Assembly: GCA_018222605.1 (NCBI GenBank)
Contig: JAAEZZ010000006.1
Location: forward strand, 144,071-208,070
Source of the DNA: Alphaproteobacteria bacterium
GTDB lineage: Bacteria > Pseudomonadota > Alphaproteobacteria > Caulobacterales > Hyphomonadaceae
Direction: 5' to 3'
Length of the DNA: 64,000 nucleotides
The number at the start of each line of letters is the position of its first letter. The first letter of the stretch is position 1. Positions 25,451-30,028 of the stretch are shown here, piece after piece. The notes below the pieces were generated by a model, which was not told where the DNA came from, did not search any database, and was given only the letters and a program-made list of their open reading frames with translations. A program made the position numbers and the translations under genes.

Positions 25451-26560
25451 TCAGCCCAGGGTTTTCAGCGCCCTTTCTGTTGCAATAACAAGGTCTTCCG
25501 TAGGCTCAATCCCACACGCCAGACGCACGAATCCCTCTGCCACCTGATCGCCCCAGCGGATTCTGCACTCGGCGGACGTATGAACCCCGCCAAAGCTGGT
25601 TGCGGGAACAGACATCGCATTGTTTTCAATAAACATTTCTGCTGTTTTGCGGTCCTTCAGAGTGAAGCTGACAATCGGGCCATATGTCCGCATTTGGTGA
25701 GATGCCACGGCATGGCTCGCATCACGCGGCAGGCCAGGGTAGCGCACAGACTGCACGGCAGGGTGCTTTTCCAGCATTTGCGCCAGGGCGAGCGCATTCT
25801 GGTTTGCCCGGAAAACGCGTAGTTCCAGCGTCTCAAGCCCACGATGAAGCAGCCAGGCATCGAACGGGCTGACAATCGCCCCGCCAAGTCTCCGATAGGT
25901 GCGGATCTGGTTGATCAACGCCGTATCCCGGCTGGCGACATGTCCACACAGCACATCGGAGTGCCCGGCCATCGCCTTGGTGTCGGCCATAAGCACCATG
26001 TCCGCGCCTAGATCCATCGGCTGCTGGCAGATCGGCGTGGCGGTCGTGTTGTCCGCCACCAGCAGCGCGCCTTCGGCCTTGGCCCGGTCTGCCACGGCGG
26101 CAATGTCGCACACATCCAGCCCCGGATTGGAGGGCGTCTCGATCATGACCAGCCGACAGCCTGTCATGTCGGCTTCGGCCATCTCCGCCGTCGGGCAGGT
26201 CTCCATGATCACACCGCGCGGAACGAAATACTCCTGCAACAGGGCGCGCACATTGTAATAGCCGTCAGAGTGCACCAGTACCTTGTCGCCGGGCTTCAGC
26301 TGCGTGTGGAGGATCGCCGCCACCGCCGCCATCCCTGATGGGAATAGAACCACTTCAGCATTTTCCAGCAGGCCGATTTCCGCTTCCACGCTTTCCACCG
26401 TCGGGTTGCCATTGCGGCCATAGAAATGGCTGCCATCAGGGTTTCCCGGCAGCAGAAAAGTTGAACTTGGCATGATCGGCAGGGCCACCGGGTCTCCCTT
26501 GGACAATCCTCTCGCGCGGTGATGCAGCAATTCGGAAATGGCAGAGGGTTTCCAGGTCAT
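25451..26560 (-). CDS. Cys/Met-metabolism PLP-dependent enzyme (cystathionine lyase/synthase family)
   Basis: The 369-residue protein belongs to the trans-sulfuration family of PLP enzymes. The motif YGRNGNPTVESVEAEIGLLE (about 48-67) and FPSGMAAVAAIL bind phosphate and cofactor; VADNTTATP and DTKAMAGHSDVLCGHV (lysine about residue 195) form the PLP-lysine site. It may be a cystathionine gamma- or beta-lyase or a related enzyme; the substrate cannot be settled from the sequence alone. It stands 28 bases downstream of the caspase gene on the same strand. Confidence 0.87.
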   Translation of the reverse strand: MTWKPSAISELLHHRARGLSKGDPVALPIMPSSTFLLPGNPDGSHFYGRNGNPTVESVEAEIGLLENAEVVLFPSGMAAVAAILHTQLKPGDKVLVHSDGYYNVRALLQEYFVPRGVIMETCPTAEMAEADMTGCRLVMIETPSNPGLDVCDIAAVADRAKAEGALLVADNTTATPICQQPMDLGADMVLMADTKAMAGHSDVLCGHVASRDTALINQIRTYRRLGGAIVSPFDAWLLHRGLETLELRVFRANQNALALAQMLEKHPAVQSVRYPGLPRDASHAVASHQMRTYGPIVSFTLKDRKTAEMFIENNAMSVPATSFGGVHTSAECRIRWGDQVAEGFVRLACGIEPTEDLVIATERALKTLG

Positions 26561-26588
26561 GGGCAGTCTCTCCTTCAGGCGAGTCGGA

Positions 26589-28439
26589 TCAGTTGGATTC
26601 GCTGGACTGTGCGCTGTCTTCCGCCGGGTGGAAATAGAAATCCTGCATCAATCCATCGGAAATCCACGGTGTCTGCGTCTTGCGGGATTCGAAGTAGACA
26701 GTGCGCTGCGCTGTTTTGAACACATCCGTTGCATCCATGCCCGGCTGGCTCAGCGCGTCGGCCAGTGCCCTGGCATAGGGGCCGACAGTTTCCTCTGGCG
26801 CGTCGAACGCGGTTTCGCCCGGCGCCGTGGCATAGGCGACCAGCGCGCCGCCCACCCAGTCCACGCGCGACAGGCCCTTGCTGGCGCTCACGCTCTTCGT
26901 GCCGTTGCCTGCGGGCAGGCCCGGATCATTGCGGCAGGCATCCAGCACATAGAAGGCAAAGGAGGGCTCAAAGGCCTGCACATATTCAATCACCTTCTCA
27001 ATCGAAAGTGCGCGGATCAGATCCGTCTCCGAGGTCAGCTTCATGCCCACCGGCGCCAGATAGTTCGGTCCGTTCGGGTCAGGGGCAAATCCGTGACCTG
27101 AATAGTAGAAGAACACCGTTGGCGGCATCTCCTTGGGTTCCTTTGACAGGCGCGTTGCCAGATTGGAGAGAGACAACCCCATTTCATCAGGGTCCGCATC
27201 CCGGTAGAGAAACACTTCAAACCCCGCCTGGATCAGCCGGTCTTTCATCAACTGAACATCATTGTGCGGATTGGTCAGGTCGTTCAGGTTTGGCGCATAA
27301 GTCCTGTTGCCGATCAGCAGCGCGATCCGGGCCGGGCCGTCCATTTTGCGCGTCGGCATGAAATGCTCAAACCCTGCTTGCAGTTTTACCCCTGCAGGCG
27401 CGCGTAGGCTGAGGGCCTTCAGGCGCAGCCTCGCCTGATCCACCAGAACGCTGTCAGGGAATTTCTCGATAAAGTCAGACATCGCCTCAATCGAGTTGAG
27501 GCTGACGGCGGACTGCCAGACGGCGAGTTCTAGGGCGAGATCCTGTGACACGCTTTCGGCCCGCGGCGCACCGGACGCGCTGGATTGCACGAGCGGAACA
27601 GATTTCGTTGGCGCGGCCGCGCTGCCCGTGTCTTTCCCGCCTTTGCCCTCAAACAAAATGAGCGGGCGGGACGTGCTGATGATCGCCTCCGGAAATTGCT
27701 GGCCCTCTGACGCCTCGATGGTTTCCGATTGCACGCGCGCGAAAATCTCCGTCACCGTCAGGCCCGGCTCGCGCAGCGCGTCTGCCAGCGCCTGGCTGAA
27801 ATAAGACCCCTCCGGCGTCTCATAGGCATAGTCGCCAATGCGTGTTGCCCACAGCTGGTAGATTTCCGGCAGCCTCAATTCTTTCGGGGTGTCGCGCTGG
27901 CCGATGCCCTTGGAGCGCTGGCCGATATAGGCGCGGTTCGTATCAAAGGCGAGCACCAGTTGGCGCGGCCCGTCAAACACCATTTGAGCCAGCGCATCTT
28001 CCACAGAAACACTCTGCGATGTCATGCTCTGGCCCCGGCTGATCTGGGTGATGTCCAGGTTAACCGGGATGAAATAATCCTGTCCCGCGCCGCTGCCTAT
28101 GCCGTGGCCTGTGTAATAGATAAAGCCGGTGGAGTCCTCCGGGGCGTCCGCCAGTCTCTGCCGGAAATCCGCGAACGCCGCCTGCATTTGCGCCTGTGTG
28201 CCATCGGCCAGAACCGTGACATGAAAGCCGATCTCTTTTAGGGCGGCCTCCATTTTCTCCCGGTCGTGCGGCACGCCCGGCAGGGTTCCGACATAGTCAT
28301 CTAGATACGCTGAATTCGCGATCAGCAAGGCCAGCTTTTCGGGTGCGTCGTCTTCGGCAAAGGCAGACCCCGCGACCAGCAACAATGCACCTGCCAGGCT
28401 AACGGCCCAGCATCTCAGTATCTGCAGAGTACGGCCCAT
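26589..28439 (-). CDS. Exported protein with tandem caspase-like domains, first one lacking the catalytic cysteine
   Basis: The 616-residue product has a signal peptide (about 1-28) and two peptidase C14 (caspase/metacaspase-like) domains. Domain 1 (about 34-265) begins KLALLIANSAYL and has the histidine motif YYTGHG with His112, but the cysteine position reads FDTNR, with Asn168 where DACR is expected. Domain 2 (about 368-605) begins RIALLIGNRTYAP and is complete: YYSGHG with His449 and LDACRNDP with Cys502. The linker of about 100 residues contains a short helical repeat-like part. ATG 28439 is used because the signal peptide follows directly; the frame extends upstream without one. Substrate and role are unknown. 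It may be cotranscribed with the downstream PLP enzyme gene. Confidence 0.88.
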   Translation of the reverse strand: MGRTLQILRCWAVSLAGALLLVAGSAFAEDDAPEKLALLIANSAYLDDYVGTLPGVPHDREKMEAALKEIGFHVTVLADGTQAQMQAAFADFRQRLADAPEDSTGFIYYTGHGIGSGAGQDYFIPVNLDITQISRGQSMTSQSVSVEDALAQMVFDGPRQLVLAFDTNRAYIGQRSKGIGQRDTPKELRLPEIYQLWATRIGDYAYETPEGSYFSQALADALREPGLTVTEIFARVQSETIEASEGQQFPEAIISTSRPLILFEGKGGKDTGSAAAPTKSVPLVQSSASGAPRAESVSQDLALELAVWQSAVSLNSIEAMSDFIEKFPDSVLVDQARLRLKALSLRAPAGVKLQAGFEHFMPTRKMDGPARIALLIGNRTYAPNLNDLTNPHNDVQLMKDRLIQAGFEVFLYRDADPDEMGLSLSNLATRLSKEPKEMPPTVFFYYSGHGFAPDPNGPNYLAPVGMKLTSETDLIRALSIEKVIEYVQAFEPSFAFYVLDACRNDPGLPAGNGTKSVSASKGLSRVDWVGGALVAYATAPGETAFDAPEETVGPYARALADALSQPGMDATDVFKTAQRTVYFESRKTQTPWISDGLMQDFYFHPAEDSAQSSESN

Positions 28440-28509
28440 GCGTCTAGTCCTCCGTCCCCCAGGAGAACGGGAACTATACGCGGCTTGCGGCACAAATCCA
28501 GAGCCGAGC

Positions 28510-29505
28510 TTATCCGGCGCTGGCTTCCAGGATTTTGGCATTCGGGCCGATCCGTTCCGCCGCCTGTTCGCGCGTCGCCTCATCCAGCCGGTGCCAGGCC
28601 GCCCGCAGGGTTTGCAGGCATTTTACCTGATACTTGAACACACTCTGCTCATAGCGCCCGCCTTCGATCTCAAGTGAGAAACTGTCCTCTTCGGCATTCA
28701 GCGCGTCTTCATTGGCCTTCAGGAAGGGCAGGTAGGTGTCGCCAGCAATGGCCAGCAAGTCCTGAACAGGCTGGCTGAGGCCGTCTGCCCAGTCGCCTTC
28801 AATTCCGCTGGCATCATCGGCATGGTCCAGCCAGCGATAGAGATAGGGCGTCTCCGCGCGCATCCAGGCCATTGGCGTCGGGTCCACGCTCATCACTTTC
28901 AGCTGCCCGTAAAAGCCGAGATCGGCGAGCGAGATCCGGTTCCCAAACAGGAAGCGGTCTGGCCCGGTCGCCATGGCTTCCAGATGCCTGCAGACACGTT
29001 TCCAGCTTGCTTCGATCAGCGGCCCTGTGGCGGGTGTGCAGCCAACCAGCGCCATGCGGCTGATCTGCCGTTCACGGATCGTGGCGGCGGCCTCTTCCAC
29101 GCCTGCGCGGCCCGCATTGGGCAAGCTGTCAAACATCAGCCAGTTTGCACACCATTCGGCATCGTCCTCATAGGCCCAGCGATAATGGAACATCGCTTTC
29201 ATGAACCATTCGTCTGCCATGTCTTCCAGCAGCAGGCAAGCAAAATGCTCCAGCGGCCCGGGCGGCAACAGGCCCCGGCCTTCCTGTTCAAGGCTCAGCA
29301 GGAAGGGTGTCGAGTCATTCGTCCAGCTGCCATCCGGACGCTTGATGACGGGGATCACGGGCGCCTTCACATTCGGCATGATCTGCTGGCGGTCTTGCGC
29401 TGTCATGCCTGTCCATGTGTGTATCAGCCGTTTGGCCCGCATCGCGGCGCGCACCTTCATGGAATAGGGGGAGCCGAGTGCTCCGTAGACTTCATAATGG
29501 CTCAT
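28510..29505 (-). CDS. Glutathione S-transferase-like protein
   Basis: The 331-residue protein has an N-terminal thioredoxin-like part (YEVYGALGSPYSMKVRAAMRAKRL, with VIPVIKRPDGSWTNDSTPFL as the cis-proline and gamma-Glu site) and a helical C-terminal part with the N-capping-like LFGNRISLADLGFYGQL. It is longer than standard GSTs (about 210 residues) because of a C-terminal extension of roughly 80 residues. The substrate is unknown. It lies between the caspase gene and the DUF1330 gene on the same strand. Confidence 0.8.
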   Translation of the reverse strand: MSHYEVYGALGSPYSMKVRAAMRAKRLIHTWTGMTAQDRQQIMPNVKAPVIPVIKRPDGSWTNDSTPFLLSLEQEGRGLLPPGPLEHFACLLLEDMADEWFMKAMFHYRWAYEDDAEWCANWLMFDSLPNAGRAGVEEAAATIRERQISRMALVGCTPATGPLIEASWKRVCRHLEAMATGPDRFLFGNRISLADLGFYGQLKVMSVDPTPMAWMRAETPYLYRWLDHADDASGIEGDWADGLSQPVQDLLAIAGDTYLPFLKANEDALNAEEDSFSLEIEGGRYEQSVFKYQVKCLQTLRAAWHRLDEATREQAAERIGPNAKILEASAG

Positions 29506-29605
29506 ATAACCCTCCCGTTTATGTTCTTTTGTTGGATCAGATTCTTTGCGGGCAGGTTACTCGTGAAAGCGATATTGGCCGCTTTCAGCAGCGCAATATA
29601 GGCCG

Positions 29606-30028
29606 TCACCCTGTGATACCTTCTGCGCGCTCAACGCGTGTCGTGATAAGTTCCTGGCATAGCAGGCCCGCCTCCCGGTGCCGGGCCATGGACTGGTAAT
29701 CCTTGTGGTTCAGCGTGGCGATGAAAGCCTGCCGGTTCGGGAAATGCATCACCATCACCGCGTCCCAGTCGCCATTGCCAATGAAATAGCGCTCGGCCTT
29801 GCCCATCAGCAGGCAGGTGCCGCCCACGTCCGCCGCTGCCACGCCGAAGGCATCGGCATAGCGCTGATAGGCATCGCACCCCGGCTCGTCATTCCCGTGT
29901 TCGGGGTCGTCCGGCTGGTATTCCGCCTTCATGCGGAATTTCAGCAGATTCACCTGCGCGATGGGGCCGTCATACGGGTCATCCCGAAAGGCACGGAACT
30001 GGTCGGCGGTCGGCTGGAAGGCAGGCAT
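29606..30028 (-). CDS. DUF1330 family protein
   Basis: The 140-residue protein has a ferredoxin-like dimeric alpha/beta-barrel pattern. The segments PIAQVNLLKFR, YQRYADAFG, WDAVMVMHFPNRQAFIATL and the end segment TTRVERAE fit DUF1330. No catalytic role is known for this family. It is 11 bases downstream of the NUDIX gene and likely in the same transcript as the NUDIX and S9 peptidase genes. Confidence 0.82.
   Translation of the reverse strand: MPAFQPTADQFRAFRDDPYDGPIAQVNLLKFRMKAEYQPDDPEHGNDEPGCDAYQRYADAFGVAAADVGGTCLLMGKAERYFIGNGDWDAVMVMHFPNRQAFIATLNHKDYQSMARHREAGLLCQELITTRVERAEGITG

Follow-up and report, generated by a model that had tools for sequence, protein, structure and literature searches.

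In the window (the whole stretch of 64,000 nucleotides analysed here), a minus-strand gene, in all likelihood that of a Hyphomonas species, encodes one protein with two caspase domains, the first dead and the second with an intact catalytic dyad, and its sequence suggests that the dead domain is likely a built-in, non-cutting partner of the predicted working protease behind it. The coding sequence, stop codon included, occupies 26589..28439 (minus strand, as are all features of the gene given below), is read from 28439 and specifies 616 aa without an internal stop. The profile search against C14 families that an earlier sequence-only reading had proposed places two PF00656 (Peptidase_C14) stretches on this protein (P0001; 190.7 bits, E 4.1e-56, cut-off 21.4), in line with that reading's picture of a dead and an intact caspase domain told apart by DTNR and DACR motifs. 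Domain 1 comprises residues 31-275 (27615..28349) and carries Y108-Y-T-G-H112-G and D166-T-N168-R; domain 2 comprises residues 367-608 (26616..27341; best PF00656 stretch 371-602) and carries Y445-Y-S-G-H449-G and D500-A-C502-R. The 616-aa translation reproduces the earlier numbering of Asn168 and Cys502 as well as YYxGHG in both domains. By alignment, His449 (27093..27095) and Cys502 (TGC, 26934..26936) are the catalytic His and Cys of domain 2, and this is the only PF00656 His-Cys dyad in the protein. In domain 1 the catalytic His position holds His112 (28104..28106), which is Gln or Asn in some relatives, and the catalytic Cys position holds Asn168 (AAC, 27936..27938). With its substituted dyad (HN), domain 1 taken by itself would be a pseudo-orthocaspase, whereas the whole protein also has an intact dyad. 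The gingipain profile C25 (PF01364) scored 14.6 bits (cut-off 23) and the NCBIfam profile caspase_w_EACC1 (NF047832) 79.3 bits (cut-off 140), both below threshold, and the C50 and CHAT families are absent from the protein's Pfam matches up to E 1. The linker between the domains (residues 276-366, 27342..27614) has no Pfam match and is predicted by the model to form helices at 299-314, 317-326 and 333-346; its pattern E-x-x-x-W ... FPD ... ARxRLxAL is also found behind the caspase domains of some single-domain relatives (alignment A2).

An alternative, longer ORF of 664 aa from an upstream start would overlap the GST-like gene, and we therefore placed the start at 28439, where a ribosome-binding-like GGAGG (28449..28453) lies nine bases 5' of the ATG. 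On our inspection residues 1-28 (28356..28439; hydrophobic core, AFA-E, model helix 2-26) form a predicted Sec-type signal peptide, and the protein is predicted to be periplasmic. The direct neighbours, which Pfam assigns as a PLP gene of Cys/Met metabolism and the GST-like gene, give no link to a protease and no sign of a defence island. PADLOC's caspase profile PDLC02987, for anti-phage candidates, matched at 40.3 bits with partial profile coverage and at the domain level only. The window's genome (3.70 Mb, 16 contigs) has one other caspase, at G000:C9:244266-244955 (L149); its 710-aa ORF opens with a lipobox-like LSGC, is proline-rich over a long N-terminal portion and carries a live caspase domain (GHG/DACR) at the C-terminal end.

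Domain 1 is predicted to adopt a caspase fold, as the sequence-only reading had supposed. In the predicted structure domains 1 and 2 each have six strands, edge strand included, and what looks like a p10-like half (two further strands plus helices); orthocaspases are defined by a p20 without p10 (PMC6426788). Fold comparison of the model gave MALT1 and caspases as the nearest folds. Gingipain and separase were not among the 50 matches listed for either dead-domain model, an absence that excludes nothing. The complete strand set with its edge strand, as modelled, and the nearness to MALT1 and caspases would suit a domain 1 that acts as an allosteric dimer partner, packing on domain 2 via the edge strand while its old active site stands idle, the chain thereby bringing its obligate partner with it, as in cFLIP-L/caspase-8 (PMC11121540) or gingipain (PMC4626109). 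The two domains also stay paired, with the same branching, throughout the family tree described below. The model itself (pTM 0.54) gives no reliable interdomain geometry for such packing, and an idle site by itself leaves unexplained the pattern of conservation in domain 1, to which we now turn.

We aligned the eight two-domain proteins found (alignment A1: P0001-P0006, P0008 and P0021); P0001-P0003 are near-copies, and the eight rows amount to about four independent lineages. The domain 1 dyad is HN in P0001-P0004, QC in P0005, NN in P0006 and HH in P0008 and P0021, so that the His column reads HHHHQNHH and the Cys column NNNNCNHH; among loci it is QC in L007 (from genome G066) and HN in L005, L006 and L034. 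Asn168, whose conservation in homologues the earlier reading had singled out for a survey, does not hold as a conserved feature (Asn 5/8, Cys 1/8, His 2/8). Cysteine did not turn up at random in domain 1 either: P0005 and L007, which keep it, have His replaced by Gln, and the domain 2 dyad is HC in 8/8 rows, with D394, H449, D500 and C502 each 8/8. What is conserved in domain 1 at the sequence level is a broken dyad with two pocket acids kept, not one given substitution. For the Cys column of domain 1, parsimony gives N or C at the root, with two changes. Since the QC rows keep Cys and the HN rows keep His, an intact domain 1 ancestor with separate losses is plausible; a regained Cys is also allowed by parsimony. 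The distant relatives P0008 and P0021 (about 27-28% identity) each have a further dead-live pair, with His-His replacing the domain 1 dyad, and the live domain of P0008 also matches CHAT (33.6 bits).

Nei-Gojobori dN/dS values for domain 1 and domain 2 were 0.24 and 0.13 between the window and L005, 0.12 and 0.07 between the window and L034 from Hyphomonas beringensis (0.118 for domain 1), 0.12 and 0.08 between L005 and L034, and 0.41 and 0.26 against L007, the last value being unsafe with dS >1. Domain 1 is under purifying selection, weaker than that on domain 2 in all four comparisons. It would be improbable, then, that domain 1 merely survives from an old fusion, keeping the chain soluble or anchored and having no specific role: the dyad is broken differently per lineage and domain 1 evolves faster than domain 2, as a leftover might, yet its dN/dS is well below 1 and its fold and pocket acids are kept.

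The pocket acids were identified by comparison with MALT1, in which the P1 arginine is in contact with Asp365 and Asp462 (PMC4626109). Asp59 of domain 1 (28263..28265) and Asp394 of domain 2 align in sequence with MALT1 Asp365, numbered after the structure match; Asp166 in DTNR (27942..27944) corresponds to Asp500 of domain 2 and to MALT1 Asp462, and Asp500/Cys502 align with MALT1 462/464. No counterpart could be assigned for the third MALT1 pocket residue (Glu500). Asp59 and Asp166 are invariant in 8/8 rows of A1 even though both catalytic columns of domain 1 vary. Invariant columns make up 19/245 of domain 1, and the chance that both acids fall among them is about 0.006, an after-the-fact figure drawn from few independent lineages. 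The acids may instead be kept for the fold.

Our leading but tentative reading is that domain 1 acts as a reader of basic sites that does not cut them and either docks substrate for domain 2 or restrains that domain. Having lost the catalytic pair and kept the acids of a predicted Arg/Lys pocket, domain 1 would bind basic sites and leave them uncut, and in the predicted periplasm it would either bring substrate to domain 2 or curb that domain's predicted protease activity. That domain 1 binds a ligand, that it prefers basic residues and that it acts on domain 2 are all inferred. Docking, with domain 1 as an exosite capturing Arg/Lys-containing substrate, seems more likely than restraint because domain 1 has retained a pocket for which a partner with a structural role alone would have no use. 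The same pocket argument, made from aligned sequences, is why we place a basic-site reader ahead of the dimer partner with an idle site, a possibility that ranks close behind it.

Three further genomes of the genus encode a full-length relative of the protein, namely G044 (95% identity), G038 (90%) and G066 (50%); the best named relative is that of H. beringensis (L034, 90%), which is counted once with G038. Full-length copies are found in 4/42 genomes of the genus, the window's own (G000) included, and in 4/105 family genomes searched. Chance occurrence is excluded by the full-length relatives in three genomes together with the purifying selection on domain 1. Gene order around the caspase gene in G044 and G038 is that of the window. 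In G066 (L136 compared with window 25451-30028) the caspase gene is on the opposite side of the GST-like gene, and it has either moved or been inserted separately inside one conserved neighbourhood.

When 398 genomes of the order were searched with a profile (E 1e-40), 10 matched, three of them with full-length copies (G000, G044 and G038) and seven with a live-domain match only; G066 is not among the matches listed. At the protein level, two clear caspase domains were present in 8/55 proteins, the window's own included (P0001-P0006, P0008 and P0021), and in P0009 the second caspase match is weak and partial. Plasmid records were also searched for tandem copies: 246 records match, 16 of them with 80% query coverage, and the ten matches listed were rejected as tandem copies, each spanning about 700-850 bases, that is, one domain matched by both query halves. 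In one 845-aa ORF (L018, genome G078) a live caspase domain precedes a highly degenerate stretch that still looks caspase-like (44.7 bits), and another region lies C-terminal to both. The sequence-only reading had called an active/inactive pair on one chain uncommon. Outside these relatives that description stands, with a second domain in 0/97 caspase ORFs from the 79 loci examined in other organisms (from the best 80 of at least 417 loci found by a live-site motif scan, L034 left out); within the genus it does not, for a pair in mirror order matches in 19/42 genomes.

The members of this mirror-ordered family (L114, L116, L117, L119-L128 and L132; P0070-P0104, of which P0070 is from H. adhaerens) have RR near the N-terminus, a live N-terminal caspase domain and a dead C-terminal one in which Tyr replaces His and Gly replaces Cys. 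No member was found in the window's own genome, where a profile-free search matched only the window's protein and the C9 caspase. Over 20 aligned rows the live domain has an intact dyad in 20/20, while in the dead domain the catalytic His and Cys are each retained in 0/20 (aligned column) and the two pocket acids in 19/20 and 20/20. The replacements are themselves fixed (Tyr 19/20, Gly 18/20), which speaks further against a functionless leftover. One relative of the family (P0099) combines the dead domain with matches to FtsH-like N-terminal and AAA models (PF06480, PF00004); this fusion could be a misassembly.

The residue just before the old site is also a Cys in the mirror dead domains (20/20 rows). 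Together with the Cys kept in P0005 and L007, it is what one might expect if dead domains had a chemistry of their own other than peptide cleavage, at Gln-Cys or His-Asn sites; we regard this as very improbable, in that no residue set is common to all rows and, in the window's domain 1, neither the site nor the residues next to it are Cys. An intramolecular inhibitor, with domain 1 or the linker blocking domain 2 until cut or displaced, is somewhat less remote, though still unlikely. Exported protease precursors are often kept inactive, and N-terminal self-inhibition is tabulated for gingipain and metacaspases (PMC4357240); however, the mirror family has its dead domain after the live one, which is unexpected for a shared propeptide-like mechanism, and domain 1 is a whole conserved fold, bigger than a propeptide needs.

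The tree, built from 67 domains, places domain 1 of five family members in one clade (100/100) and their domain 2 in another (100/99), and the branching within the two is identical. Because both clades branch alike, the two domains travelled together; a recent internal duplication, considered as their origin, is not favoured by these separate and well-supported clades. Each of the two domains of the mirror family likewise forms a clade at 100/100. The live domains of P0008 and P0021 are set apart from the window's live domain by starred branches, and at least two dead-live pairs (the window's family and P0008/P0021) were therefore probably assembled separately, as judged from the sequence tree. 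Support is weaker (94/95) for separating the mirror live domain from that of the window's protein, and for a possible shared ancestry of the dead domains in the window's family and in P0008/P0021 the values are 25/0.

It is possible, if somewhat doubtful, that Hyphomonas and its relatives repeatedly built two-caspase proteins in both orders, with one domain reading (chemistry gone, P1 pocket kept) and the other cutting, as a one-chain counterpart of cFLIP-L/caspase-8. If so, built-in pseudo-caspase partners would not be peculiar to animals or gingipain and would have arisen more than once, and in both orders, in one bacterial genus. Such proteins would also provide small, soluble two-domain systems for testing the effect of a dead domain on its live neighbour, be it as dimer partner, exosite or inhibitor. 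Surveys that credit each bacterial caspase with a single dyad can misfile them as simply active or simply dead.

The sequence-only reading knew of no described function for such a pair; precedents do exist within clan CD, in subdomain A of gingipain (PMC4626109) and in cFLIP-L/caspase-8 (PMC11121540). In the literature searched (open-licence PMC papers) we found no bacterial caspase with a live-dead tandem, though PMC3501461 groups consecutive domain repeats in its account of domains, and tandem C14 proteins could hide in its counts. The HEAT and TPR repeats of separase (C50) and TPR-CHAT (Csx29) are missing in the window's protein. Separase may have a 'pseudo-protease domain'. Separase and TPR-CHAT are, like the caspases, clan CD proteases; PMC4626109 tells of a second domain that it did not itself find, and a 2025 structure paper speaks of one protease domain (PMC12609080). 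The bacterial pseudo-orthocaspases (C14) likewise have substituted dyads, QC and HA among them, in Alphaproteobacteria and Cyanobacteria (PMC6426788), and HN and QC are also listed in PMC8283722; they differ in that each protein is treated as having a single p20, accompanied by trypsin-like, TPR or DUF partners, and the relevant sections of these sources describe no live-dead tandem. MALT1 (paracaspase, C14B) is the best structural and sequence match of both domains and shares the Arg pocket acids, but it is human and has a single caspase domain flanked by Ig domains. Gingipain R/K (C25, clan CD) has, on a single exported chain, an inactivated caspase-like subdomain A immediately followed by an active one, the two being arranged much like a caspase dimer (PMC4626109). 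The dead-then-live order is the same in the window's protein, whose relative packing the model does not fix at its pTM; the N-terminal subdomain of gingipain has four strands (PMC4357240) as against six in domain 1, which is still PF00656, its match to C25 being weak. In cFLIP-L/caspase-8 (C14A) a pseudocaspase pairs with an active caspase and alters its activity and substrate choice (PMC11121540), in animals and with two chains carrying death effector domains, whereas here a single bacterial chain holds both partners. We concluded that the kind is already known, since dead-live caspase pairs exist in clan CD, and that what is new, as far as our searches of open-licence papers go, is a C14 tandem in bacteria whose dead domain is whole, recognisable and retains its pocket, and which occurs in both orders within one genus.
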